Shown here: in pieces, positions 4,675 to 37,249 of the stretch
Position numbering within the stretch: position 1 is the stretch's first letter
Layout of the letters: every line of letters starts with the position of its first letter
DNA from: a candidate division SR1 bacterium
Lineage (GTDB): Bacteria > Patescibacteriota > JACMRA01
Reading direction: 5' to 3'
Assembly: GCA_014377045.1 (NCBI GenBank)
Contig: JACMQI010000039.1
Span: 1 to 55,523 of the forward strand
Length of the DNA stretch: 55,523 bases
Program-made: the position numbers and the translations under genes
The notes under the pieces: model-generated
The model's database searches: none
What the model saw: only the letters and a program-made list of their open reading frames with translations
Told to the model about the DNA's origin: nothing

Positions 4675-5262
4675 ATGATCTTTCATAAACTCACAAACAC
4701 CCTTCTCAAAGGACTTCTTTTATTTGTACTAACCTCGTCCCCAACCGCCAATATTTTTATAACGACTAGTCCTACAAACCATAATTTTTATAACTATCAG
4801 ACCACTCACCCAGATTTAAAAAATAACTCCATACAAGTTTCTGCTGAAGAAAAAACAAAGTCAAATTTGCCTAAAGAGAATTATGCTTCCTATACATGTA
4901 ATGAAAATCTCTATAAACCACTATTAAATGAAATAAATAAACTACGTAAAGAAAATGATGTACCAAAAGCAACATTAGATGGCCAACTCAATGCAGTTGC
5001 CTGTGCACATACAATATGGATGATAAAAAACCAAAAATTTGGTCATCGAGGTATAGATAATACTGGTTTTGCATCTCGCTGTTTAGAAGCAGGTACCAAG
5101 TGTGAAGATGAAAGCGTCTTGGTAGATATTGTGAACGATCTTGTAGATGTATATAAAAAAGCAATAGGCGATGAAAGTACAAAAGTAAAAATGCTCGATC
5201 CAGGTAATAAAAATATAGGTTTTGGACTCGAAGAAGGTGTGCTCACTGTGATTTATCGGTAA
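4675..5262 (+). CDS. secreted CAP-domain (SCP/PR1-like) protein
   Basis: A 195-residue protein with an N-terminal hydrophobic signal (about residues 9-30). After a polar linker, residues about 80-195 match a short CAP domain: NEINKLRKENDVP, then LDGQLNAVACAHTIWM and KFGHRGID, where the His pair is where CAP proteins hold their putative metal-binding or active-site residues. Bacterial CAP proteins are extracellular and of mostly unknown biochemical function. Four cysteines may form disulphides. It is a single-gene unit with its own promoter; a decayed gene with its own promoter follows. Confidence 0.8.
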   Translation: MIFHKLTNTLLKGLLLFVLTSSPTANIFITTSPTNHNFYNYQTTHPDLKNNSIQVSAEEKTKSNLPKENYASYTCNENLYKPLLNEINKLRKENDVPKATLDGQLNAVACAHTIWMIKNQKFGHRGIDNTGFASRCLEAGTKCEDESVLVDIVNDLVDVYKKAIGDESTKVKMLDPGNKNIGFGLEEGVLTVIYR

Positions 5263-5303
5263 ATATACTTACTAATTTAATGTATTTACCTAATATATTA
5301 AAA

Positions 5304-5332
5304 TTGACAATTAAGCTTTTATATGCTATTTT
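5304..5332 (+). promoter_or_regulatory. promoter of the decayed gene at 5348
   Basis: TTGACA (5304-5309), 17 bp, TATTTT (5327-5332); ATG at 5348. The promoter is well preserved although the gene behind it is broken. Confidence 0.6.
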
Positions 5333-5347
5333 ATAGGTAGTTTCATC

Positions 5348-5696
5348 ATGAGGTTTTTGTTTTGATTAAAAGTATTGACATCTTTACTATTCTGAATAAT
5401 GTTACGACTATCGAAGGAGTTAGTTTAGTTCAAGTAAAACTTGATTACTCTAAATCTAAGGCATTTTTGTAACAATGATAATCGCACTGTTATTTATACT
5501 TGCACAATCGATTTGATAAAGTAGACACTGGATTTGATGGAGTTACTAAAGAAATTTCGACAGCTGAAGTCTCAGTCGCTGAAATCAAAGCAATTATGTC
5601 TATGATAAAAGCAGTATAACTCGGTACTACCTAGTGGCTATTGTTAAATCTGTAAATAAGGAAGCAATAGAGAAAATTCAGAACAAACCTGAATAA
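5348..5696 (+). pseudogene. decayed small gene, unknown product
   Basis: ATG at 5348 opens MRFLF and stops at once; one extra T in the TTTTG tract would continue into LIKSIDIFTILNNV and VSLVQVKLDYSKSKAF. The same frame then holds TAA, TGA and TAA codons near 5470-5482, resumes with FDKVDTGFDGVTKEISTAEV, stops after MIKAV, and a third frame gives VKSVNKEAIEKIQNKPE up to 5696. Promoter and terminator flank it, so it was a gene of about 115 codons that now carries at least two frameshifts and several stops. I do not recognise the product. Confidence 0.55.
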
Positions 5697-5704
5697 ATTG
5701 AAAC

Positions 5705-5736
5705 GAGCTAGACCACCATGTCTAGCTCTATTTTTA
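5705..5736 (+). terminator. Rho-independent terminator, possibly bidirectional
   Basis: GAGCTAGAC (5705-5713) pairs perfectly with GTCTAGCTC (5720-5728) around a 6-nt loop, followed by TATTTTTAT. It ends the decayed gene at 5348-5696 and faces the end of the converging decayed gene at 5744-6686. Confidence 0.8.
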
Positions 5737-5743
5737 TTGATTT

Positions 5744-6686
5744 TTATTTTATTACTTTATCTATATTATTGAAGATATTTGGCGAATTATCATAGTGAGT
5801 ACCGTCATTTTTAATAAACCCAGTGCCTCGAATTTCAAATAAAATCTTTCCAAGTTCCACAGTTACTTTGTCTTTCTCCAACCCAGCTTCATCAAGAGTT
5901 TTTACAAAAGGAATATAAATTTGGATATTTTTGTTCGTATATAATTTGATTATTTCTGCAAATAGAATAGTTTTTGCTGAAAAAATATATAAGATAATAC
6001 TTATACTGTTGTAAATCTAAGAATTCCATTTTGGATTTCCGAAAGATTTTTCCATTTAATTATGTCAGAAATCAACCAAATATTTGGAGTATGCTCAAAC
6101 TCAAAGAATTGAAAAAAAATAAAAGTTACCAGAATTGCGAGTGTTATGAACATAGCATTGCGCCATTTTGATGCCTCTACTTCATTTTTCTTCTCATAAA
6201 TTTCATACTGATCTTCATACCCTTTAATAGCTTCTTTTTGGAACAAAAGTTGTTGAGTTGATAAATATTCTTTTCTATCTTTTTCAATATTATCTCTTAT
6301 TTCTTTACTATTATTGTTTATCTCTTGGATTTCCTCATAAAGCTTTCTAGCTGCATTTTTATTTATTGCTTCTTTATTAACTAAATTAAATGTATTTATT
6401 AGTGATGTTGCATTTGCAAAGGCAGATCGTAAATTTTGTTCTGCGTAGCTGAGCATGTTTTGGTCTTGATCGGTTAAATTTAACAACTGACTAACGTAAC
6501 TTTGAGCTTGATAAAAATAAGATATAGCCCACTATTCAATCGAGTTTAGGTTGCTAATAGTTATAAAATCAGACTCATTATTTTTACAAACATCAATAAT
6601 CTCTTCCAACAAATTGTACTGCCTAATGAAGCCATCAATTCTTTTTTCTTCATAGTCAAGATTCTTTAATTTTGTAAGTCAGTCAT
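5744..6686 (-). pseudogene. decayed membrane protein with coiled coil
   Basis: The longest open piece (6001-6486) gives a coiled-coil-like helical region and a membrane segment (about RNAMFITLAILVTFIFF). Upstream the same frame continues through a TAG at about 6538 into FIRQYNLLEEIIDVCK and LKNLDYEEKRIDG. The likely ATG at 6684-6686 is out of frame by one base. Downstream, past a frameshift near 6001, another frame gives a second hydrophobic stretch and TKNIQIYIPFVKTLDEAG-like sequence up to a TAA at 5744. A promoter (TTGACG at 6725-6730, TATTTA at 6703-6708) is still visible. The intact ancestor was about 310 residues. Family not recognised. Confidence 0.6.
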
Positions 6687-6779
6687 ATTTAGTTATTTGT
6701 TTAAATACTAAATAATTAATAAATCGTCAATACTAACCTATTTAGATATCAAAAAACACCCAAATTGGGTAAGATATTA

Positions 6780-6856
6780 TGGTGCGCTCGGAGGGGATCG
6801 AACCCCCGACCCTTGGTGCCGAAAACCAATGCTCTAATCCACTGAGCTACGAACGC
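6780..6856 (-). tRNA. tRNA-Arg (anticodon TCG)
   Basis: Full cloverleaf on the minus strand: acceptor GCGTTCG/CGAGCGC, D-arm with GCTCAGTGGATTAGAGC, anticodon stem TTGGT/ACCAA with loop TTTCGGC (anticodon TCG, reads CGA and probably other CGN), T-arm GGGGGTTCGATCCCC, and an encoded CCA end. Confidence 0.95.
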
Positions 6857-6895
6857 GTTTGAATATTTATGGACTAGATTACTAGATTTGTCAAA

Positions 6896-7270
6896 TTATA
6901 TAGCTTTTGGAGTTAACAAGACACCGATGATGATTGGGTAAAAAAGCATCGTAAGTGATAGTAAAACCAAAAAAGAAAAAAAAGCTAGTAATTTATTCAC
7001 TTTTGTAAGCCTATTGCGGTTTAGAAAACCCACTACAAAAGAAACAGTTATAAAAGCCACCTGCTGTAACCATAGATTTTGCAGGTTTTGAGGACTATTT
7101 TGATAAGCAAAGAATATAAAATCAGGATTATATTTGAATGGATCACTTAAAAAACTCTGGATGATACCATACAAAATAGCTAGATAAAGCCATACAAAAG
7201 CCCATGATGTAAATACAAAATGGTGTATGATTTCAAAAATTTCTTTCTTAATCTTGAGTAAAATAGGCAT
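6896..7270 (-). CDS. small integral membrane protein, three or four TM segments
   Basis: About 125 residues starting at the ATG at 7270 (MPILLKIKKEIFEII). An upstream TTG in frame at 7285 overlaps the -10 box and is unlikely to be the start. Hydrophobic segments lie near residues 18-40, 70-87 and 95-118. No family recognised. It has its own promoter and lies between tRNA-Arg and clpP. Confidence 0.65.
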   Translation of the reverse strand: MPILLKIKKEIFEIIHHFVFTSWAFVWLYLAILYGIIQSFLSDPFKYNPDFIFFAYQNSPQNLQNLWLQQVAFITVSFVVGFLNRNRLTKVNKLLAFFSFLVLLSLTMLFYPIIIGVLLTPKAI

Positions 7271-7283
7271 GTAACTACTTAGC

Positions 7284-7312
7284 AATATATCAGTAATTCC
7301 TTGATTTGTCCA
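7284..7312 (-). promoter_or_regulatory. promoter of the small membrane protein gene
   Basis: TGGACA (7307-7312), 17 bp, TATATT (7284-7289); the ATG at 7270 follows after 13 nt, so the leader is only a few nucleotides. Confidence 0.6.
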
Positions 7313-7327
7313 GACAAAAACTTTAAA

Positions 7328-7948
7328 TTAAGACAAAATTTTATCTACGATACCATAGTCTAGAGACTCTTGAGCATCCAAAAAAGTGTCTCTATCCATA
7401 TCTTTTTCAAGTTTTTTGATTGGTTGTCCAGTCTTATCCGCCATAAACTTATGTAGTTGTTCTTTTGTTTTTAGAATTTCTTTTGCGGTGATTTCGATAT
7501 CACTTGCTTGACCTTGAGCACCTCCTGACGGCTGATGGATCATAACTTTTGCATTTGGAAGGATAAATCTTTTACCTTTTGCACCATTAGCGAGAGTCAA
7601 ACTTGCAGCACTTGCAGCCATACCTATACAGACTGTCGATACATCTGGTTTGATTAGATTCATCGTATCGATGATGGACCACATGGATACTACACTACCC
7701 CCAGGTGAATTGATATACATAGTGATATCTTTTGTAGCATCTTCTGACTGTAAATATAGAAGCTGAGCTACAATAATACTAGCCATTGTATCATTAAAAT
7801 CCTCTGCTAAGAGAATAATTCGTTCATCTAAAAGACGAGAATAAAGATCCATAGAACGCTCGCCATCGTGAGTACGCTTGACAACCATAGGTACAAGTGA
7901 AGCATTTGGAGCTGCGTTTAAAGCTAAGTTTGGTGATATATAAGACAT
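7328..7948 (-). CDS. clpP: ATP-dependent Clp protease proteolytic subunit
   Basis: Serine peptidase of family S14 that forms the tetradecameric barrel working with ClpX or ClpC to degrade unfolded and tagged proteins. 206 residues, the usual length. Catalytic Ser113 in GMAAS, His138 in MIHQPSGG, and the Asp in the [11 protein letters not shown] region are all present, as are the INSPGG loop and the YGIVD C-terminal signature. A TTGACA about 50 nt upstream (around 7993-7998) marks the probable promoter. No Clp ATPase gene is in the window. Confidence 0.97.
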
Positions 7949-8063
7949 AAATAAAACTTTATTGGTATGCCTCGAGGCTATAATATTAAATATATTTTGT
8001 CAAGGTTCATCCTTGGTTGCTAACTTTATTATTGACTGCTCAGCTCAAGGAAGTGCTTTATAT

Positions 8064-8094
8064 AAAAAAACTCCATCTTAATTAAAAGTGGAGT
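8064..8094 (-). terminator. Rho-independent terminator of the gene at 8119-8433
   Basis: On the minus strand ACTCCA (8089-8094) and TGGAGT (8070-8075 region) form a stem around an AT-rich loop, followed by a run of seven T. Confidence 0.7.
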
Positions 8095-8118
8095 CGTATG
8101 TTTCTTAATTCAAATAAT

Positions 8119-8433
8119 TTAATTGCGAAGATTCTCATATTCCAAAGTACAGTATTGTACAAAATTTTCGTCGATATAATAGTCTACAACGAGTGCAGCC
8201 ACAATATCTGGGAGAATTTGCGATAGAGTGTTATCAACAAGGTTTAGTCTATTCATATAAGAAAGATAAGCCTTATTTATTTCAAGAATTAGTATACCAG
8301 GAGATACCGTAGTATCTGCCAATTTTTCAATCTCGGGATATAGATATCGTTCAAAATGAGTAACTTTGTAAAAACCGAGAAGTCTCTCTCTCAGAATTTG
8401 TTTATCAGGAATTATTATGAGCATATCAGACAT
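8119..8433 (-). CDS. hypothetical 104-residue protein
   Basis: A soluble, leucine- and isoleucine-rich protein with no signal peptide and no motif I recognise. Unlike most genes here it has a real leader of about 30 nt and a Shine-Dalgarno-like AGAGGT eight bases before the ATG at 8433. A second ATG three codons later is an alternative. It has its own promoter (8469-8497) and terminator (8064-8094), so it is a single-gene unit, divergent from def. Confidence 0.65.
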   Translation of the reverse strand: MSDMLIIIPDKQILRERLLGFYKVTHFERYLYPEIEKLADTTVSPGILILEINKAYLSYMNRLNLVDNTLSQILPDIVAALVVDYYIDENFVQYCTLEYENLRN

Positions 8434-8468
8434 ATAAATGTACCTCTAATTATCAAACACTAGCAATT

Positions 8469-8497
8469 TAAATACAACGAAATTATATTTTTGTCAA
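8469..8497 (-). promoter_or_regulatory. promoter of the gene at 8119-8433
   Basis: TTGACA (8492-8497), 17 bp, TATTTA (8469-8474). The start codon is 35 nt away and is preceded by AGAGGT, so this is a leadered, SD-type unit. Confidence 0.65.
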
Positions 8498-8523
8498 GAC
8501 TATAATTGCAATCAAATCAATCC

Positions 8524-8552
8524 TTGACAATAAATCATTTTCACAGCATATA
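8524..8552 (+). promoter_or_regulatory. promoter of def (leaderless type)
   Basis: TTGACA (8524-8529), 17 bp, CATATA (8547-8552; TATATC two bases further is an alternative). The def ATG is at 8560, about where transcription should start. Confidence 0.7.
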
Positions 8553-8559
8553 TCAAAAT

Positions 8560-9063
8560 ATGTTGAAGATTATTACCTATCCAAATCCTATTCTTGAGCA
8601 AGTTGCCCAGGATGTCACTTTTCCCCTAGATAATGTAACTAAAACCTTGATTAAAAATATGTGGGCTACTGTTAAAGAGCTTGGTGTGGGACTTGCAGCT
8701 CCACAAGTAGGTATATCAAAAAGAATCTGCCTAATTCATCTTGCCAATGTTGAAAAAGGAAAAAGTGCAAAAGATTTACTACTTATTAATCCAATAATAA
8801 TATTTAATAGCAAAATAGAAGCTCAAATGATCGAGGGTTGTCTATCATTTCCTGATGAATTTTGGAAAATATGGCGTCCAGCAAATATAGAAATCGAATA
8901 TCAAGACGAACGTGGAAATCTCAAGAAGCTTAGAGCTAGCAAATGGCTTTCACGCGTCATTCAACACGAAACAGATCATTTAGAAGGCAAAATATTTATC
9001 AAAAAAGGCGGAGAAAAAATTGAAGAAAAAGATCTACAAAACAAAGATGAAATAATAGACTGA
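8560..9063 (+). CDS. def: peptide deformylase
   Basis: Removes the formyl group from the N-terminal methionine of new proteins. All three deformylase motifs are present: GVGLAAPQVG (residues about 41-50), EGCLSFP (with the metal-binding Cys) and QHETDHLEG (HExDH with the metal-binding His pair; Thr replaces the common Met). I choose the ATG at 8560 (MLKIITYPNPIL), which matches the family start; the frame is open 18 codons further up to 8506, but that region contains the promoter. The protein is 167 residues, normal length. A single TGA separates it from hrcA, which has its own promoter. Confidence 0.95.
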   Translation: MLKIITYPNPILEQVAQDVTFPLDNVTKTLIKNMWATVKELGVGLAAPQVGISKRICLIHLANVEKGKSAKDLLLINPIIIFNSKIEAQMIEGCLSFPDEFWKIWRPANIEIEYQDERGNLKKLRASKWLSRVIQHETDHLEGKIFIKKGGEKIEEKDLQNKDEIID

Positions 9064-9066
9064 TGT

Positions 9067-9095
9067 TTGACATCTTTAGACCATTTGACTAATCT
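9067..9095 (+). promoter_or_regulatory. promoter of hrcA (leaderless type)
   Basis: TTGACA (9067-9072), 17 bp, TAATCT (9090-9095), then 10 nt to the ATG at 9106. The TTG of the -35 box is in frame with hrcA and could be miscalled as the start. Confidence 0.65.
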
Positions 9096-9105
9096 TGATG
9101 TTAGT

Positions 9106-9912
9106 ATGACCAAAAAAGACGATTTCGACCCAAACATAAATCTAAGCCAGAGACAGCGTAATATATTGTTTGCTATCGTAAAAGAGTACTGCGATCATAG
9201 TCAAAGCTTAAGTTCACTTGAATTAAAACAAAAATATGGATTTAATTTTTCACCTGCAACTATCCGTAACGAAATGGTAGTTCTTCGAGATAAAAATTTT
9301 TTGTATCAACCCTTTACTAATAGTAGTTCTAAGCCAACTGAACAATCATTTAAGCTTTTCATTAATCAACTTATCGTTGGTTTGCAGGTTACTTCAGCCC
9401 AGCAGCAAGAGCTTAGAAAGCAAGTACTAGAAATGGAACAAAAACAAGTCAATCTAAGCAAGGAAATCAGTCGATTATTGGCTCTTAGCAGTGGTGGAGT
9501 AGGATTCAGTGTCAATGGAGATGGTGAAAGTATTGCAGGTATGAGTAATCTACTGGTATCTCCAGGCGAAGGAAAAGTATCAGATATATTAAACTTTTTA
9601 GACAATCTTGATCAGTACAAACAGTACCTTTTAGAGGGAAATATCGGTACAAATGGTGAACCAAAAAACCAAATAATCAAGCTAAATAAAACTGATGAGC
9701 AAAATATCCGAACTATCATTGGTGGCGAAAGTACTATATTACCACTTGGAAAAGGATATGCCATGATTGCGACTGAAGTTTATCTTGATAATAACGAAAA
9801 GAGCGTTGTTGGTCTGATCTCCCCTATTCACCTACTAGCACGCAAAAAAAACATCGAGCTTATTGAGAATATCTCTAAGCTTTTCGCAAAAAAGAATAAT
9901 ACCAAAAAATAA
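9106..9912 (+). CDS. hrcA: heat-inducible transcription repressor HrcA
   Basis: Represses chaperone genes by binding the CIRCE inverted repeat. Residues about 10-90 form the winged-helix DNA-binding part with the typical SPATIRNEMVVLRDKNFLYQP and KPTEQSFKLFI. The rest is a shortened HrcA effector domain: 268 residues in total against about 340 in Bacillus. I prefer the ATG at 9106 (MTKKDDFDPNINLSQRQ) because the promoter occupies the upstream in-frame stretch. A CIRCE-like site is found at the DnaJ-domain gene at 21.7 kb. It converges with the membrane protein at 9925. Confidence 0.85.
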   Translation: MTKKDDFDPNINLSQRQRNILFAIVKEYCDHSQSLSSLELKQKYGFNFSPATIRNEMVVLRDKNFLYQPFTNSSSKPTEQSFKLFINQLIVGLQVTSAQQQELRKQVLEMEQKQVNLSKEISRLLALSSGGVGFSVNGDGESIAGMSNLLVSPGEGKVSDILNFLDNLDQYKQYLLEGNIGTNGEPKNQIIKLNKTDEQNIRTIIGGESTILPLGKGYAMIATEVYLDNNEKSVVGLISPIHLLARKKNIELIENISKLFAKKNNTKK

Positions 9913-9924
9913 TTTATCTATTAA

Positions 9925-11346
9925 TTATAATTGTATTTTTCTCACTGTCTGAGACTCCTCAGTGCTTTTTTTATGGGTTGTAGCAGTGTTAAGTTTATTA
10001 GGAATTATGAAATGATTATTAGGTAGAATCTTTGTCTCCTTATTTTTATTAATTCTAGCAGTCGTAAGCCGTTTGATATAGCCAAATGTACCAGGTAAAT
10101 TTAGTCGCGGTGAAGGTAACCTAAGAAGCTTTTTATTTTGTAAATTATGCTCATTTTTTTTGAGTAAATCTGGTTTATTTTTATGATTATTTCCAAGAAT
10201 TGATTCCTCAGGAACTCTAAATAACTTTTTGTAGCTTTGATTAGAAGTTTTAGGTATTCTTTCTTTAAACTTTTTTGGAACAAAAATATTAAGCCTGTTG
10301 AAAATCCAAAATAAAAGACCGACTAAAAGAAATCCGAGCGCTGTTATCAATGCTGGAAAGACTAAATCTAATGCAAAAATTACTAATTGTTCTGAAATTA
10401 TTTTTATAACCTCCGAATTTACAAATCCTGGAAGTAAAAATTCTTTTATAGCAGAAATAATATAGCTAGTACCACCAACAGCAAAAACGAAAATTCCACT
10501 AAATATAGATGTAAATAGTGCTACAGAAAAACAAGCTCTAAATACAAAGAATAGAGGATTTCTACGTGTAGCATATAAAAACATTACATTAGTGAGGATA
10601 AGACCAATGATGATCAAAGCTAAACTGATAACGTTATTGCGTAGTGCAATTGATAGATCCCTAGCAGATGTAATAAAAGATATTATTTTTTGTTTACTTT
10701 GGGAGCTGTTTGCTGCTATTTCATTGATATTTTGGATTTCGCTTTTATTACTTAGGTTTGATCCTTTTACTAAATCATTTAAAATTCCAATAGATGGTTG
10801 CAATGAAGAATTAGATATAAATTCAGTGAGAGTTTTTTGATTATTTCGAACTTCGCTTGGAATACAAAAATCTTTATTTAAATCAAAACCTTCTACTTTT
10901 ATAGTATCTGACTGAGTTTGAGTACAAACTTTGAGTTCTTTTTTATTTGCTGTGACAAAATTATCTGTTTCTTTATCTACGCTTTTTAAAAGTGCTTGTT
11001 CTACTTCTCGTGTTGGAACATACAGTTCCCAATTATCTTTACCATTTAACCAACTAGATGTAATATCGATATTTTTCTCTATAACCCCCCGAAGAAACAT
11101 AGGTGTTACAATCTCTCTTATAATAGTATTAGATAGTATATAAGAAAAACTACTTTTAAGCGCAGCTTGTTCTAGGCTAATTTCTGGCTTGATCTGAGTG
11201 TTGATTTTTTCATAAAAATTATTGTCCACTAATCGCTTTTTATGAAGCTGGGAATTTGGTAGAACAAACACTACACTAGTGACAACAATTGAGGAGCTAG
11301 CAAACCAAACGAAAAGATGAAAAAATAACCGCCTAAGATTGTTCAT
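9925..11346 (-). CDS. large membrane protein with extracytoplasmic domain, unknown
   Basis: 473 residues. One N-terminal TM (about 9-29), a roughly 200-residue extracytoplasmic region with two cysteines (in VCTQTQ and DFCIPS), three TM segments (about 235-257, 267-290, 325-350), and a basic cytoplasmic tail of about 120 residues rich in Lys and Asn. The topology is clear, but I recognise no family. It has its own promoter at 11358-11385. Confidence 0.75.
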   Translation of the reverse strand: MNNLRRLFFHLFVWFASSSIVVTSVVFVLPNSQLHKKRLVDNNFYEKINTQIKPEISLEQAALKSSFSYILSNTIIREIVTPMFLRGVIEKNIDITSSWLNGKDNWELYVPTREVEQALLKSVDKETDNFVTANKKELKVCTQTQSDTIKVEGFDLNKDFCIPSEVRNNQKTLTEFISNSSLQPSIGILNDLVKGSNLSNKSEIQNINEIAANSSQSKQKIISFITSARDLSIALRNNVISLALIIIGLILTNVMFLYATRRNPLFFVFRACFSVALFTSIFSGIFVFAVGGTSYIISAIKEFLLPGFVNSEVIKIISEQLVIFALDLVFPALITALGFLLVGLLFWIFNRLNIFVPKKFKERIPKTSNQSYKKLFRVPEESILGNNHKNKPDLLKKNEHNLQNKKLLRLPSPRLNLPGTFGYIKRLTTARINKNKETKILPNNHFIIPNKLNTATTHKKSTEESQTVRKIQL

Positions 11347-29587: not shown

Positions 29588-30562
29588 TTATTTGCAATCT
29601 AACGCTTTTGCTAACGCGGTAAGATTTTCTTTTTGTACAGAAATATAATCCTTACCTATTTTTTGCTCCTCATCGGTCAACCCTTCCAGTGGATTGAGCA
29701 CTAGAATTTGAGCTCCAGTTTCTTTGGCGATAGTTTCGGCTAATTTAGGGGACGCTAATGTCTCACTAAATATATATTTAATACCTTTTTCTTTTACCAG
29801 CTGGGATATTTGAGCCAAATCTTTACTAGACGGTTCACTTTCAGGCGAAATTCCACTAATAGGAGTAGATTTAAACCTATACTCTTTTGCTAAATATTGG
29901 AGGAAATTGTGTGAAGTTATAACCTCATTTTTTGTGCAATTAGCAAGCCTTGTCTCATACTCGTTGTCTAACTGAGCTAAATTGTTGATAGCACCGTTAC
30001 TATTATATTCGTATATATCTTTATTTTTTATATCGATTTTTATGAGCTCATCTCGAATTACTTGTATTTGCCTAATAGCCATCTTTGGACTCAACCAAAT
30101 ATGAGGATCTGTTTCATTTTTTTCTTCAGTCGTATTTTTATAAATATTTACGGTTTCAAGTGGCTTTAGAATTGTAAAATTAGAACTCATATCGATTGTT
30201 TTGACATTAGCTTTCTCAAGATCAGATTTTATTTTGGATGCCCAAGGATCAAGACCAGCACCATTGAATACTAATAATTGAGATTTATATACGTCTTGTG
30301 TTTGGCTGGTAGTAGGTTCATACTCATGCGGCTCACTTCCTGCAGGAGTAATATTTTTGACCGTAACAAGACCGCCGCCGACCTGCTGCGCGAAATAATA
30401 AAGAGGGTAAAAACTAGTAGATACTGTAATGTTTGGATTTTGAGCGACTTTATTTGGATTATTTTTGTGCTGTAATATAAAAATAAAGGTAAAGACTATA
30501 AAAAGTACTATACCCAATACTGCAAATATTTTAATTTTGGGACTTATAGTCTTACTAATCAT
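29588..30562 (-). CDS. metal ABC transporter substrate-binding protein (ZnuA/TroA family)
   Basis: 324 residues with an N-terminal membrane anchor (about 12-30). It binds a divalent metal outside the cell and hands it to an ABC permease. Metal ligands of cluster A-I proteins are visible: His in AGSEPHEYEP, His in DPHIWLSP, His in TSHNFLQYL, and an acidic residue in FSETLASPKLAE. The His-rich loop typical of many ZnuA proteins is absent, so zinc and manganese cannot be told apart. No permease or ATPase gene is in the window. A Fur-family regulator lies about 0.9 kb away, and the promoter shares a 15-mer with the M16 protease promoter. Confidence 0.9.
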   Translation of the reverse strand: MISKTISPKIKIFAVLGIVLFIVFTFIFILQHKNNPNKVAQNPNITVSTSFYPLYYFAQQVGGGLVTVKNITPAGSEPHEYEPTTSQTQDVYKSQLLVFNGAGLDPWASKIKSDLEKANVKTIDMSSNFTILKPLETVNIYKNTTEEKNETDPHIWLSPKMAIRQIQVIRDELIKIDIKNKDIYEYNSNGAINNLAQLDNEYETRLANCTKNEVITSHNFLQYLAKEYRFKSTPISGISPESEPSSKDLAQISQLVKEKGIKYIFSETLASPKLAETIAKETGAQILVLNPLEGLTDEEQKIGKDYISVQKENLTALAKALDCK

Positions 30563-30566
30563 ATAA

Positions 30567-30581
30567 AATAGTTAATGCAAC
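30567..30581. repeat. 15-bp sequence shared with the M16 protease promoter (copy 1)
   Basis: AATAGTTAATGCAAC on the plus strand, covering the -10 and part of the spacer of the znuA promoter. An identical 15-mer is at 34779-34793. The core GTTAATGCAAC has a partial GTT-N5-AAC dyad. Candidate operator of the Fur-family protein encoded between the two. Confidence 0.45.
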
Positions 30582-30598
30582 TCGTTTGCTTTTGTCAA
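30569..30598 (-). promoter_or_regulatory. promoter of the znuA-like gene (leaderless type)
   Basis: TTGACA (30593-30598), 18 bp, TAACTA (30569-30574), 6 nt to the ATG at 30562. Confidence 0.65.
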
Positions 30599-30720
30599 TA
30601 AAAAATTAAGAAATTATAAAAGACACCAAAATAAATTTATGCCCTAGAATAATATGCTTAGAAAAGTCATATCAGCTAAGTCAACTTTTGTTGAGTATCC
30701 TTTATATTTTTAGATTGAAG

Positions 30721-30972
30721 CTAATTTAGACGACAACCCATTGTTCTAATACCTACATTTCTTGCTAATTTTTGTGCGGCTTCACATCCATTTTCAGTGA
30801 GATATGGCTTTGAATATTGTTTATTCATTATACTGCCTGAATCGCTGAACATGTACGTCCACATTCCAGCAACCGCTTTTTCTTCACGAATGCCATTTTG
30901 AATTACCGAACCAAGAAATACGCCAAAAACAATTGAAACGACGACGATGTAAGCAATATTGAACTTATTCAT
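30721..30972 (-). CDS. small single-TM protein, unknown
   Basis: 83 residues with an N-terminal TM (about 6-25) and a 55-residue extracytoplasmic part containing two Cys (NGCEAA and MGCRLN) that may form a disulphide. No family recognised. A TTGTAC-N16-TAGTAT promoter lies just upstream (about 30991-31018), on the far side of a decayed stretch. Confidence 0.6.
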   Translation of the reverse strand: MNKFNIAYIVVVSIVFGVFLGSVIQNGIREEKAVAGMWTYMFSDSGSIMNKQYSKPYLTENGCEAAQKLARNVGIRTMGCRLN

Positions 30973-31314
30973 TAAAAAAATTCCAAAAGGATACTATAAT
31001 TTAATAGCTACAGTACAATAGCGTATTTATAGTATTTATGCAAATATAGTTTATTCTTAAACGACGATATAATGACAGAGATAACAATCTTTATGGTAAA
31101 GCTGTATTTCATTTATTTTATGAAGGAATCAGCTATATAAGCACTTGGGAAAGATTCTTGATTTCCTGAATATGGCTTATAAGGATAGTATCTCTCTAGT
31201 ATTATCTGTTATATCTCTTTATGCAAAAATATACAGATCGGCAATAAAACAAGTTTAAATTAGTACTACAGCTCTAAGATTTATTAACACCTCACCCCTA
31301 AACTATTCTATTGT
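30973..31314. other. gap with possible gene remnant
   Basis: No intact gene. On the plus strand, 31060-31170 reads RRYNDRDNNLYGKAVFHLFY and then GISYISTWERFLIS before a TGA, and another frame continues MAYKDSISLVLSVISLYAKI to a TAA near 31259. Coding character suggests a remnant of a small gene broken by a shift, but I cannot name it. The rest holds only the promoter of the small TM protein gene. Confidence 0.3.
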
Positions 31315-31343
31315 TTGACACTAATGTTGAACTTATATATAAA
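31315..31343 (+). promoter_or_regulatory. promoter upstream of the Fur-family gene
   Basis: TTGACA (31315-31320), 17 bp, TATAAA (31338-31343). The first ATG, 7 nt on at 31351, opens a 12-codon reading frame (MLVTKAITQFIF); the regulator itself starts at 31419. The leader is thus about 70 nt and may contain a leaderless mini-ORF. Confidence 0.6.
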
Positions 31344-31418
31344 TAACAATATGTTAGTCACCAAGGCTATTACCCAATTTATATTTTAATAAATCCTCCT
31401 AAAAATGATATTCTTAAT

Positions 31419-31850
31419 ATGCAGTCAATTATAGTTAATAAACTAAAAACAAAAGGATATCGCCTTACTGTAGCACGAAAAGCTATAATCAATATTTTTG
31501 AGTCTAATAATAAGCCAATTTCTGCCGAGCAAGTCAATGACATTTTGATCGAAGACAGCATATATATTAATAAAAGTACGCTTTATAGGGAAATAGATTT
31601 TTTAGTTATTCAAAACTTACTAAAGCCTATTCAGCTTCAAGAAAAGACCAAGAGATATGAACTAGTCCACCTTCACCATCACCATCATCTAATATGCCAA
31701 AAATGTAATAAAATAGAAGATTTTGAAATAAAAAACTGTATTGATGATGTATTAACAAAAGTTACATCAGATCACAATTTTTTGATAAGTGATCACATTC
31801 TTGATATATATGGGATATGTAGCCAATGTCAAATTAAGAAAGAGGTTTGA
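31419..31850 (+). CDS. Fur-family metal-responsive transcription regulator
   Basis: 143 residues. Winged-helix part: GYRLTVARKAIINIFE and STLYREIDFLVIQNLL. Metal region: the His-rich HLHHHHHLICQKCNKIEDFE plus CxxC pairs CQKC and CSQC, the structural zinc site of Fur, Zur and PerR proteins. The neighbouring znuA-like gene makes Zur the most likely type. Its 3' end overlaps the converging M16 gene by 17 nt. A 15-bp sequence shared by the promoters of znuA and M16 is a candidate operator. Confidence 0.9.
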   Translation: MQSIIVNKLKTKGYRLTVARKAIINIFESNNKPISAEQVNDILIEDSIYINKSTLYREIDFLVIQNLLKPIQLQEKTKRYELVHLHHHHHLICQKCNKIEDFEIKNCIDDVLTKVTSDHNFLISDHILDIYGICSQCQIKKEV

Positions 31851-34740
31851 TTACTTCATAGCTTGATTTATTTGCTATTTCATCAAAACTACTTTGTGAG
31901 CTAAAGATAGCCCATTTTCCATCTTTAAAAGAAGTGGATAAAATATTACCGAGCTTATGGAAATCGTCGATACTGACATCTAGTATTTGCTTGCGGATTT
32001 GAGATAATTCCTCATATGTACGACCTGTCAAAGTACGTATGAGACTTACCCATCCTTTATCTCGCGGAGCCATATACGAGTCAAATTTACCAATTGAACC
32101 TATAACCGAATTAAGTATATCATTTTTGTCGATTTTTAGATCTTGTAAATATTCACCAATTTTAGCATAGTCTTTGATAGTACCTTCAAAACGAGGATCC
32201 CGATACGACCAAAAATTTACTACCCCACTTAATTTATCAAGTGTAGCTCGGGAACCATATGCGCCACCTTGAGCACGTATCTTGGACCAAAGATAATCAT
32301 AGTTTAGATGATTTAATACGACATCAAGCTGTCCGCCAATCACCCCTGAAAAAGCAGTCTTTAAATTTACTCCATAACATACATAATTTACTTTTGTAGG
32401 TATTACAAAGACTGTTTTATCTTTATATTTAGATGACAAAATACTAGATTTATTGATAAATCCTTGTCTAAAAGTAGAGATAAAATCAAAAATAGGTTTT
32501 TCAAGAGTGTTCAAATCTTTCGACTCAACAGTAATATTTACTACTAAACTATTTTTTATAAAAAGATTATTTTGAATATAAAATAAATCATTTAGTACTT
32601 CCTGCCAGTTAGTTTCTACTCTCAAAATTGTTTCTTGAAGCCATTGTAGATATCTATAACCACTCGTAATCTCATCGAAATCACCTGACCTAGACACCAG
32701 TGAATTTATAGCCATAGTACCATATACTCGACCATCGGATACTATATTTGACTCCAAAGTAGATTTCAGATCTATAAGAATTTGCTTTATCTTGTCTTTA
32801 TTATCTAGTTTAAGTGTTTGGATTATTTCACTCCATATTTCTAAAAGTGAAGCAATACTACGAGGCAATACCTTGCCTCTCAAAAATAAATACCGTACAA
32901 CACTTTCTCCATCAACTTTCTCCATATTTATGACTTTCGATGAAAAATTTCCTGTATGAAGATCTAATAATTGATTTATGTCATTTGCAGTATAGTGGGT
33001 AGTATTAAGTTCAGTAAAGAGCCTACTATACAGTGCTAAATATGGATAATACTTTGCATCAATTGCATCCAGATCAAAACCTATGTCAATATATGCCACG
33101 CCATTTGTATGAATATTATGGTAATATACAGGTACATCTTGAACACTATTTTTTATACTTGGTATTATTTCAGGATCACCTTTTAAATCTTCAAAAGTGA
33201 GTTTTGGAAGCATTGCTAGTTGCTCTGGAGTGTCCTTTATATTTTGAAATTCTTTAAGTTTTTGTGTTTCTAATACTAATTCGTTAAGTTTGGATATAGA
33301 TAAAGATTGTTTATAACTATCTAATTCTTTGGTTTCTTCTGCAGCAATATCATCAAGCAAGCCTTTCTTAGGTAAATAAATAAAATCTAATCTATGAGTA
33401 TTTTCAATAAGCTCTTTTTGTATCATGTCTTCAAAATATCTAGGATTGGATTGCAGCTCTTGTTTAAGCTCAAGCAAGTCTTTTTCAAATGATAGCGTGT
33501 TCATAAAATCCCTATCATAAACCCAATCTACCAGTATATCAAGCATCATTGCCAAACCCTTGGGATAACTACCAGTTTCATACTCACGAAGCTGAAACTC
33601 GGTTGAATTAATAGCAGCTTCAATATCTTTAGGATTTATTCCATTGGTTACAATATTATCTAAAGTACTGTATACTAGCTCGATTACTTTAGATTGGTCA
33701 GACTCAATAACACCTTTTAATCCATAACTAATCATAGGCTGCACAAGATCAAGTTCAAAACCAAAAAATGGAGCAGTATCTTCACCTAGCTTAGAGTCCA
33801 CAAGTGACTTGTAAATAGGTGCAGTTGGAGAGCCTGTTAAAATTTTATCTAAAATATAGTATGGTAGGCTATTTTCTTTTTTTGAAAATAACCAGCTAGT
33901 TGATACATAACCTTTATCAAGAGAGCTATCACCAGGATCAAAATATTCAACTTTATGCGCTAATCTAGGTAAAATATCTTGAGTGTGAATAGTGGAATCT
34001 ACATCTATTTTATCAAATTGGTTCAAATATTCGTTTATAAGATCAAATCTATCATCGCTTGTATCATCACCATAAACATATATAAGCGAGTTTGAAGGAT
34101 GGTAAAAAGTTTTATGGAAATTAACAAAGTTTTCGTAACTTAAAGATGGAATTTTTGCTGGATTACCTCCGCTATCATGACTGTATGTGTTATTAGGGTT
34201 TAAAGCATTCATGATATAGTCCGTATATATACTATCAGGATTTGAATATACACCTTTCATCTCATTAAACACTACTCCTTTATAAGTTACAGGATTATCT
34301 GTACCCTCTATTTCATAGTGCCAACCTTCTTGTTTAAAAGTTTCAGGAAGAAGCTTTGGGAAAAGTACAGCATCCATATACACCTTTGCAAGATTATATA
34401 GGTCTTTTTTATTCTGACTTGCTACAGGATAAACTGTACGATCTGGATAGGTAAATGCATTTAAAAATGTATTGAGCGAAGACTTAACTAAGTTTACAAA
34501 AGGTTCTTTAAGAGGATAGTTTTGAGATCCATTTAGTACTGAGTGTTCTAATATATGAGGAACACCGGTACTATCGCTGACAGGAGTTCGAAAGCTCACA
34601 CCAAAAACTTTATTAGTGTCATCATTTTCCATAAATAGCACGGTAGTACCACTTTTAATATGAATGTATAATTTTAGCTCAGATGAATATTCTGTAATAG
34701 TAGTTTGCTTGATAAGTTTGAAAAAATCTTTAGCTGACAT
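31834..34740 (-). CDS. M16C zinc metalloprotease (presequence protease/insulinase family)
   Basis: 968 residues, the length of the single-chain M16C enzymes (PreP/Cym1/HypA type) that degrade peptides inside a closed chamber. The inverted zinc motif HILEH is at residues 62-66, with VVFNEMKGVYSNP carrying the likely distal Glu. The second half is the inactive homologous half. No signal peptide, so it is probably cytoplasmic and recycles peptides. As a zinc enzyme next to a Fur-family regulator and a ZnuA-like protein it may be metal-regulated. It has a leaderless-type promoter, 9 nt from -10 to ATG. Confidence 0.93.
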   Translation of the reverse strand: MSAKDFFKLIKQTTITEYSSELKLYIHIKSGTTVLFMENDDTNKVFGVSFRTPVSDSTGVPHILEHSVLNGSQNYPLKEPFVNLVKSSLNTFLNAFTYPDRTVYPVASQNKKDLYNLAKVYMDAVLFPKLLPETFKQEGWHYEIEGTDNPVTYKGVVFNEMKGVYSNPDSIYTDYIMNALNPNNTYSHDSGGNPAKIPSLSYENFVNFHKTFYHPSNSLIYVYGDDTSDDRFDLINEYLNQFDKIDVDSTIHTQDILPRLAHKVEYFDPGDSSLDKGYVSTSWLFSKKENSLPYYILDKILTGSPTAPIYKSLVDSKLGEDTAPFFGFELDLVQPMISYGLKGVIESDQSKVIELVYSTLDNIVTNGINPKDIEAAINSTEFQLREYETGSYPKGLAMMLDILVDWVYDRDFMNTLSFEKDLLELKQELQSNPRYFEDMIQKELIENTHRLDFIYLPKKGLLDDIAAEETKELDSYKQSLSISKLNELVLETQKLKEFQNIKDTPEQLAMLPKLTFEDLKGDPEIIPSIKNSVQDVPVYYHNIHTNGVAYIDIGFDLDAIDAKYYPYLALYSRLFTELNTTHYTANDINQLLDLHTGNFSSKVINMEKVDGESVVRYLFLRGKVLPRSIASLLEIWSEIIQTLKLDNKDKIKQILIDLKSTLESNIVSDGRVYGTMAINSLVSRSGDFDEITSGYRYLQWLQETILRVETNWQEVLNDLFYIQNNLFIKNSLVVNITVESKDLNTLEKPIFDFISTFRQGFINKSSILSSKYKDKTVFVIPTKVNYVCYGVNLKTAFSGVIGGQLDVVLNHLNYDYLWSKIRAQGGAYGSRATLDKLSGVVNFWSYRDPRFEGTIKDYAKIGEYLQDLKIDKNDILNSVIGSIGKFDSYMAPRDKGWVSLIRTLTGRTYEELSQIRKQILDVSIDDFHKLGNILSTSFKDGKWAIFSSQSSFDEIANKSSYEVIKPLS

Positions 34741-34749
34741 ATTGTATAA

Positions 34750-34777
34750 GATATACTAAAATCAAAAAATTAGTCAA
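34750..34777 (-). promoter_or_regulatory. promoter of the M16C protease gene (leaderless type)
   Basis: TTGACT (34772-34777), 16 bp, TATATC (34750-34755), 9 nt to the ATG. The shared 15-mer (34779-34793) lies just upstream of the -35. Confidence 0.65.
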
Positions 34778-34778
34778 G

Positions 34779-34793
34779 AATAGTTAATGCAAC
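34779..34793. repeat. 15-bp sequence shared with the znuA promoter (copy 2)
   Basis: Identical to 30567-30581. Here it ends 1 bp upstream of the -35 box of the M16 protease promoter. Confidence 0.45.
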
Positions 34794-34830
34794 AAAAAAG
34801 GGCTAGAATATAAACTAATTCTAACCCTTT
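34793..34830 (-). terminator. terminator of the gene at 34854-35060
   Basis: On the minus strand AAGGGTTAGAAT pairs with ATTCTAGCCCTT (one G-T pair) around an 8-nt loop, followed by TTTTTT. Confidence 0.8.
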
Positions 34831-35395: not shown

Positions 35396-37249
35396 ATGAC
35401 TGAAAATTTTCCTCAGCAAAAAAAATTACTACCGGGCTTGCCTCAAAATCCAAAGTTACTACTTTCTTTAAAACAAGATAATAAAAGTCAGTTGACTATC
35501 GATCATATCGAATCACCATTAGCATACGATGCTGCAAATAAGGAACCTGAACTGAATAAAAACGAAAAAAAATTACCTGATCCAAGCTCACCATTAGGTG
35601 TCGATATCTCACAATTAAATTTAAGTGGGGAAGAAATGCTTATATTTAATCAATTAAGTGATAGGATTGGGGAAAAATTAGATTATAGAATAGCAAAAGG
35701 AGGTCAAAGTATAAAAGATGTTGAAGACGCAATAATTTCATTACAGAAGGCTAAATCATTAGAAGCCGCAACGCCATATATTAATTTTTTACGAAAGGTT
35801 GAAGATCGGATAGACCAACTTGCAGAGTTGACAACTGTTATAAAAAATTTTACTGAACGTCACCCTGGCTTTAGTAGTATCGAGCAGGATGTAAAAAGTA
35901 TAAAACGTAGTTGTGATAATGCTAAAACGTACGGAGGCTTTCAATACGGTATAGAGCAATTACCTAAATATAAAAATTTTTGTACACAATATGTATCCCT
36001 ACAAACTACAATGAATGCTAGGAAACATTTGATAAGCCTGCAAGATCAAGAAAAAGTTATATTACTTTACCAAAGCTTAAAAGCTCTAAGTTTTGACGCA
36101 ATGGTTGATACTTTAGGTAAGATGCAATTGATTTGCGATAGCTATAATACTATTATTAATGAAAAACAAAGCTCAGCAGAATTTTTACAAACTAAAACTG
36201 ATCTAATATCAAAAATTAATTCTATTTTAAAAACTGGAGAAATAACAGAAAAGCAAAAACAGCAAATATTGAATCAACTAGACGATTTAAACAATTATGA
36301 AAAAGAAATAAAAGAATCTTTACAATACGGATTTGATACTATATTTACAGATCCTAAATTAAAAATATCACAAGAATTAGAAACTAAACAAAAACAAAAT
36401 GATTTAGATTCACTACCGTTTGATCAGTATATAGCACGTCACGATTTTGAAAAAACTATGAAAGATATGAATTATTTTGAAAAGGTTATCGATATTATCT
36501 TATTATTACCAGAACCTTCTCCAGAAAACCACTTAATCGATTATTCAGATGACTTTATAAGTGATACTACTAGTGATGAAAAAATATTTAGATATGCAGA
36601 ACAAGCTTCTGAAACACTACTAGTTGAAGAAAAAATTAACGAATCTCAAGATAAAATATTAGTGCCAAAAGATGATATTGAAAAGCTTGATGAGCCTGTC
36701 AAGCCTAAACTGCTTCCGCAAAGACTCAACGTTGGTCAAATTATCCCTAATGAAACTAAAAAACTCGATAGTACACCAAAAAATACTTCAGGTCGCTTTA
36801 AAAAATTTATGTCAAAACTTATTCCCGCAGGACTTATCAGTGCCTTGACCGCAGTAACAGTTGCAATTTCTAATCCAAATAACCTAGACCAAAGTGCAAA
36901 TATCGCAAAAAAGCCATTCATGCCTTCTAATGAAAAAGAAAGGATGATGCAATCATTGGATGAAGCTGGACTTAGAGGTCAGCTATATCAAGCAGCTAGA
37001 CAACTTCCTGGAAATATAACTTCTATACAGCAATTAGCAGAAAAAAGAGCTGATTTTGATAAGCCGGATTTAACAGAAGCTAAAAAACAAGTAAATGCAC
37101 AACGATTTATAGATGGTATAATGATACAATCACCAAAATCTATGCCAGTAAATCAAATATTTGGTGCTGTGAGAATAGAAAATAAAGGCAAGCAAGATAT
37201 TATCGAAAAAATAGACAAAGCAGAACAAATTTATAACAATAAAGACTAG
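35396..37249 (+). CDS. large coiled-coil protein with one central TM segment, unknown
   Basis: 617 residues. The first 80 residues are polar and Pro-rich (KKLLPGLPQNPKLLLSLKQD). Residues about 85-430 are strongly helical and charged, with coiled-coil character. One hydrophobic segment lies near 478-495 (LIPAGLISALTAVTVAISNP), and the last 120 residues are helical with repeated Gln and Lys. Without a signal peptide the large N-terminal part would be cytoplasmic. I recognise no family. The thioredoxin gene follows after about 60 nt with its own promoter. Confidence 0.7.
   Translation: MTENFPQQKKLLPGLPQNPKLLLSLKQDNKSQLTIDHIESPLAYDAANKEPELNKNEKKLPDPSSPLGVDISQLNLSGEEMLIFNQLSDRIGEKLDYRIAKGGQSIKDVEDAIISLQKAKSLEAATPYINFLRKVEDRIDQLAELTTVIKNFTERHPGFSSIEQDVKSIKRSCDNAKTYGGFQYGIEQLPKYKNFCTQYVSLQTTMNARKHLISLQDQEKVILLYQSLKALSFDAMVDTLGKMQLICDSYNTIINEKQSSAEFLQTKTDLISKINSILKTGEITEKQKQQILNQLDDLNNYEKEIKESLQYGFDTIFTDPKLKISQELETKQKQNDLDSLPFDQYIARHDFEKTMKDMNYFEKVIDIILLLPEPSPENHLIDYSDDFISDTTSDEKIFRYAEQASETLLVEEKINESQDKILVPKDDIEKLDEPVKPKLLPQRLNVGQIIPNETKKLDSTPKNTSGRFKKFMSKLIPAGLISALTAVTVAISNPNNLDQSANIAKKPFMPSNEKERMMQSLDEAGLRGQLYQAARQLPGNITSIQQLAEKRADFDKPDLTEAKKQVNAQRFIDGIMIQSPKSMPVNQIFGAVRIENKGKQDIIEKIDKAEQIYNNKD

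Follow-up and report, generated by a model that had tools for sequence, protein, structure and literature searches.

The 55,523-nucleotide contig JACMQI010000039.1 of a candidate division SR1 bacterium (phylum Patescibacteriota; assembly GCA_014377045.1), hereafter called the window, carries a znuA gene for a zinc-binding ABC transporter protein, a gene for a regulator of the Fur family and a gene for an M16C metallopeptidase. From the sequence, it is highly probable that the regulator is a Zur-type repressor acting on a 15-bp palindrome in the znuA promoter and that the half-site in front of the M16C gene is without regulatory role. The gene at 31419-31850 would thus encode a Zur-type repressor belonging to a type that is common in the phylum, the zinc-bound dimer of which would sit on TGCAACTCGTTTGCT (30576-30590) between the -35 and -10 elements of znuA and exclude RNA polymerase. 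When zinc becomes scarce, the repressor would depart and znuA would be transcribed.

The palindrome occupies the spacer between the TTGACA hexamer and the candidate -10 of znuA, which is a classical repressor position, and represents the inverted repeat TGCAA-N5-TTGCA with a single mismatch. When scored with a matrix built from 58 sites (window excluded; training scores from 3.5 to 27.5, median 23.3), it ranks first in the window at 19.61, and scores of at least 16 do not occur in 600 kb of first-order Markov sequence. The own assembly, of which the window is one contig (1,044,403 bases, 85.86% complete; six genomes of the class were searched), contains the palindrome with at most one mismatch at 40 places, none of them exact. 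Among these, the znuA site achieves the top score and is the sole high scorer preceding a recognised zinc gene.

The repeat TGCAA-N5-TTGCA was first noticed in front of zinc and fur genes of relatives. With the Fur-family protein of the window, 379 genomes of the phylum were then surveyed, resulting in matches in 110 of them at an E-value of 0.001 or better. The genome sizes and the lack of the ribosomal protein uL30, which was present in 13 of 14 control genomes, agree with Patescibacteria (candidate phyla radiation). The 60 further loci considered, from 58 genomes, are the best-scoring Fur matches beyond the loci examined first. At 37 of these 60, a znu (19) or ZIP (18) gene is found no more than 1 kb from fur, and the ZIP identity (PF02535) was confirmed by Pfam in all three cases tested, one of them outside the 60 loci. 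Inverted repeats were then counted in 100 leader regions (-180 to +120 of the start) from the window, the 60 loci and the earlier loci in which the motif had been noticed; two divergent genes sharing one site were counted separately. Of the 11,264 combinations possible with 1,024 5-base half-sites and spacings of 0 to 10, TGCAA-N5-TTGCA is the commonest and is exactly present in 38 regions. All other combinations found in more than 7 regions are the same repeat in other registers, and the first unrelated ones reach 7 and 6 regions. CGCAA-N5-TTGCG is exact in five regions, hence some sites of the phylum bear C/G at the outer position. Within the 60 loci, the leaders (9,861 bp) contain 26 exact sites and the remaining 576,980 bp only 4, and 44 loci have a leader site deviating at one position or none. 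Of 36 families, 20 have exact sites and 27 have sites with no more than one mismatch, which provides a ready matrix for the prediction of zinc regulons in uncultured members of these small-genome Patescibacteria, whose transcriptional control is little known. What the genomes show directly is the palindrome itself, where it lies, that it recurs at zinc genes and that it goes together with a Fur relative.

A comparison of znuA promoters outside the training set points in the same direction. ZnuA was detected in 70 of the 379 genomes at an E-value of 1e-15, 45 with and 25 without a Fur match, and promoters were scanned between -600 and +60 of the gene start, covering all 25 Fur-negative genomes (G149 and G246 with less than 600 bp of upstream sequence). 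In the Fur-positive set of 23 held-out znuA genes (7, then 16 from 15 genomes), 12 have a site scoring at least 16, a threshold set after the first scores were seen, and 12 have a site with at most one mismatch (that of G041 located 40 bases inside the called gene). Among the Fur-negative genomes, none shows a site with at most one mismatch and only that of G149, beside N bases, reaches a score of 16 (12/23 versus 1/25, Fisher p 0.0002). One genome counted as Fur-negative, G243, does have a fur gene beside znuA according to a local search.

The fur, znu or zip leaders of loci L144, L146, L155, L160, L163, L173, L175 and L179 hold at least two operator copies not more than about 70 bp apart, suggesting that more than one dimer may be bound. 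In family f9, the perfect palindrome TGAAAAT-N-ATTTTCA is found about 384 bases before znuA (L345 1135-1149 in G352 and L349 1887-1901 in G377), standing in place of TGCAA-N5-TTGCA where a fur gene is also present; a change of operator within the phylum is therefore possible.

Regarding the regulator itself, the cysteines of a structural Cys4 zinc site (CxxC...CxxC) are nearly invariant, with C93, C96 and C134 present in 66 of 66 aligned relatives and C137 in 65, and E81 (63/66), H88 (66/66) and H90 (65/66) are likewise conserved. With 51.9 bits against the curated NCBIfam Zur model NF008646 (cut-off 167), the protein is not an equivalog of that Zur, and its assignment as Zur is one by context, not by curated model. 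Because of the linkage to zinc genes, the leader motif, the first-ranking znuA site and the result with the held-out promoters, the gene most likely encodes a Zur repressing znuA. We infer that zinc is the ligand, that the protein acts by repression and that it pairs with the znuA operator. A regulator sensing iron, manganese or peroxide (Fur-, Mur- or PerR-like), with the operator serving that response, is very unlikely in our view, as ZIP genes accompany the relatives nearly as frequently as znu genes do (18 and 19 of 60 loci). Such a role would agree with the NCBIfam scores, which are highest for Fur and PerR models though always below cut-off, and with the best PDB match by sequence, a ferric uptake regulator. 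Besides, ZnuA-family ABC importers can carry manganese, and the second-best NCBIfam match of the ZnuA is a manganese model.

Several observations weigh against a Zur acting at znuA. The znuA site deviates from the repeat at one position and is asymmetric at its centre, and a site of nearly equal score (19.44, rank 2, 36123-36137) is located inside gene 35396-37249, a 617-aa open reading frame (ORF) without Pfam match; it is probably a chance match, and since it sits within a gene, the matrix score alone is not proof. The Desulfovibrio consensus discussed below, when used alone with up to three mismatches, gives 2 matches in the window versus 2.7 in shuffles. The fur gene is without a site of its own (best nearby score -6.68, rank 364 in the window), and the znuCB operon of the same genome, encoded on another contig (L065), has only a weak candidate upstream (8.44 at 670-684), a score expected about 0.06 times per kb in Markov sequence. 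In the phylum, 16 of the 60 loci and 9 of the 36 families lack a leader site at one mismatch or less, 11 of the 23 held-out znuA genes from Fur-positive genomes are without a good site, and G001 and G004, from the window's own family, have only distant Fur matches and no site at znuA. ZnuA proteins of Fur-negative genomes tend to be more distant, which is a confounder of the promoter comparison; five such genomes with a ZnuA 40-43% identical to that of the window are still without a site. Finally, by the ligand positions of known Zur proteins, the sensor cysteine of Mycobacterium Zur would be absent, with Val83 at what is presumably its position before the His cluster (alignment read by eye).

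For a second Zur target in the own genome, all 40 places with at most one mismatch were examined. Those with a matrix score of at least 10 lie inside mechanically called ORFs, except for the znuA site, L264:1482 and L093:2890. The former is located 71 bp upstream of a 66-aa ORF as called and, by eye, inside an open frame, and the latter has no ORF start within 200 bp downstream. The degenerate pattern YGCRAN5TYGCR occurs at five places in the own genome, none of them tied to a zinc gene.

A preliminary description of this DNA had started from the 15-mer AATAGTTAATGCAAC shared by the znuA and M16C promoters. Indeed, it is exactly present at 30567-30581 and 34779-34793 with no third exact copy in the window, overlapping the candidate -10 of znuA (TTAACT, 30570-30575) and lying one base from the -35 of the M16C gene (TTGACT). 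That such sharing is unlikely by chance holds for a given pair of promoters, as two dinucleotide-shuffled 100-bp promoters have at least 15 bases in common in only 14 of 20,000 trials. Yet over the 45 upstream regions of the window (at most 990 pairs), about 0.7 such pairs are expected and one is observed, so that the identity of the 15-mer alone is weak evidence, the match being notable mainly through the genes it joins. The whole window holds 37 repeated 15-mer pairs versus 15-31 in ten shuffles, matches to the 15-mer with up to three mismatches are not above chance (7 versus 5.6 expected), and the half-site ATGCAAC occurs 8 times with 7.8 expected. It is the extension to the palindrome that makes the znuA site conspicuous. 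The first copy supplies one half-site of it and would otherwise consist of -10 sequence. Hence, the Zur-type operator proposed earlier is retained at the znuA promoter, together with a Zur-like role of the Fur-family gene, but not for the 15-mer as such: the conserved element is the palindrome, and only TGCAAC is common to both. Likewise, the supposed weak relative TAATGTTGAAC before the regulator (31322-31332) is no operator by matrix.

It is hardly probable at all that the 15-mer serves as operator of another factor, centred on the imperfect inverted repeat GTT-N5-AAC, with its overlap with the Zur site at znuA being accidental. The agreement in 15 of 15 bases at both places would fit, as would the 11-base core GTTAATGCAAC, which has these two exact copies only in the own assembly. 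However, the core with one mismatch is found at 17 further places, near the 12 of a reversed control pattern (a rough control), and none of the 20 inverted-repeat combinations reaching 4 of the 100 leader regions is of the GTT-N5-AAC type.

At the M16C promoter, the best matrix score around the second copy is -3.95 (rank 178 in the window), the T-tail of a terminator-like hairpin occupies the position of the missing half-site, and the Desulfovibrio consensus has no match there at up to three mismatches. The copy is a lone half-site beside a terminator tail, most likely without regulatory role, and may have arisen by chance. The co-regulation of the M16C gene envisaged in the preliminary description is not supported, and no close counterpart is seen at seven other M16C loci of the phylum. 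Seven other genomes of the 379 encode an M16C peptidase at an E-value of 1e-30 (G001, G003, G004, G005, G303, G307 and G366); their loci show no palindrome at one mismatch or less and no relative of the 15-mer at up to three mismatches near the M16 start, with a 2-mismatch relative of the 11-base core upstream of the G004 gene. This comparison is weak because the Fur matches are distant (G001, G004) or lacking (other five).

For other bacteria, inspection covered the best 80 of 568 M16C stretches, none labelled as candidate phyla radiation or Patescibacteria; no match was obtained when named genomes were searched with the M16 protein of the window. Within these 80, a znu or zip gene is nearby in one case and a fur gene in three, and sites with at most one mismatch between -300 and +60 are present in L205 (exact) and L192 (one mismatch). 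In L205 (Syntrophaceae UBA6252, 4737-10907), the M16C gene and a fur-znuA-znuC-znuB operon are divergent, and between them stands the exact operator TGCAACTCGTTTGCA, identical to the window operator at 14 of 15 positions. The fur genes near M16 in L226 and L238 were set aside, as they show iron-type Fur boxes by eye.

L205 leaves a link between zinc and M16C possible, and we keep it as a lead. A functional Zur half-site at the M16C gene, perhaps weak or activating, would tie the peptidase to zinc supply, in line with the identical 15-mer and its full half-site, the tail-to-tail arrangement with the regulator, the L205 locus and the arrangement in G004, where the M16C gene follows znuABC on one strand at a distance of 3.7 kb. 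We nevertheless consider this unlikely, given the low matrix score, the seven loci of the phylum without palindrome or 15-mer relative (albeit with distant or no Fur there), a half-site frequency in the window as expected by chance, the single znu or zip neighbour among the best 80 of 568 loci and a regulator in L205 only 24% identical to that of the window. It is distinctly improbable that a Patescibacteria-wide Zur lineage uses TGCAA-N5-TTGCA as main zinc switch and has, in addition, recruited M16C via the half-site in the lineage of the window. If this were true, peptide breakdown would answer to zinc and the Syntrophaceae fur-znu-M16C neighbourhood would be an independent case.

With the regulator acting at the znuA palindrome, the system would resemble known Zur switches. 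The operator was earlier supposed to form a new sequence class. However, the class is known, because Rodionov et al. (2004; PMC545781) had already predicted ATGCAACnnnGTTGCAT as the ZUR operator in front of znuABC-zur in Desulfovibrio, and the znuA site, its best match in the window, agrees with it in 12 of 14 defined bases. Repeat and spacing (TGCAA-N5-TTGCA) as well as the target operon are the same. The occurrence in 27 of 36 families suggests a far wider distribution of the Desulfovibrio-type Zur box than reported in PMC545781. Unlike in Desulfovibrio, the regulator of the window is a separate gene and znuCB is found on another contig, and some sites of the phylum differ from the Desulfovibrio consensus by the C/G outer position. 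The Gram-positive Zur box TAAATCGTAATnATTACGATTTA, quoted in PMC545781, is likewise a palindrome at the promoter of zinc transport operons repressed by a Fur-family protein, but differs in half-site sequence. In Escherichia coli, the Zur operator overlaps the -35/-10 region and RNA polymerase is blocked (PMC6103462, PMC8000910), which the position of the window operator would fit (PMC8000910), whereas the E. coli box is RNNNY-based and AT-rich and binds one or two dimers, unlike the site described here (PMC6103462, PMC8000910). The motif letters searched for were not found in the available parts of these two reviews, Zur is not mentioned in PMC5343134, and the literature searches made returned no report of a Zur operator in Patescibacteria or the candidate phyla radiation, nor of the breadth of this operator class in the phylum; znuABC is mentioned in a patescibacterium in PMC13059738.

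Features of the znuA-regulator-M16C locus in the window.
Feature	Position	Strand	Basis or remark
znuA, zinc-binding ABC transporter protein	29588..30562	-	PF01297, 265.6 bits, cut-off 29
First 15-mer copy	30567..30581	+	holds full half-site ATGCAAC (30575-30581) and -10 region of znuA
znuA candidate -10, TTAACT	30570..30575	-	inspection; 17-base spacer from TTGACA
Zur operator predicted for znuA (znuA-strand sequence AGCAAACGAGTTGCA)	30576..30590	-	58-site matrix; TGCAA-N5-TTGCA with 1 mismatch
znuA -35, TTGACA	30593..30598	-	hexamer picked by inspection
Fur-family regulator, proposed Zur	31419..31850	+	PF01475, 89.3 bits, cut-off 23.1
M16C (PreP-type) metallopeptidase	31834..34740	-	PF08367, PF22516, PF05193, PF00675
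M16 -35, TTGACT	34772..34777 (written 34777-34772)	-	one base from second 15-mer copy
Second 15-mer copy	34779..34793	+	lone half-site ATGCAAC (34787-34793) upstream of M16 -35
Intrinsic-terminator-like hairpin	34797..34830	-	consensus match only; T-tail extends into second 15-mer copy

The Fur-family gene is situated between znuA, the start of which is 0.86 kb away, and the M16C gene, with which its 3' end overlaps by 17 bases; znuCB forms a separate operon. The TTGACA/TTAACT pair of znuA was absent from the output of a promoter consensus scan, and an mRNA starting from this candidate -10 would be leaderless or nearly so. In G004 (L072 7168-8476) and G001 (L069 7222-8439), a short, diverged Fur-family gene adjoins a gene for a protein that, by eye, starts like a CooC/MinD-type P-loop ATPase, and in G004 its promoter bears the exact palindrome TGCAACACAATTGCA at -62.

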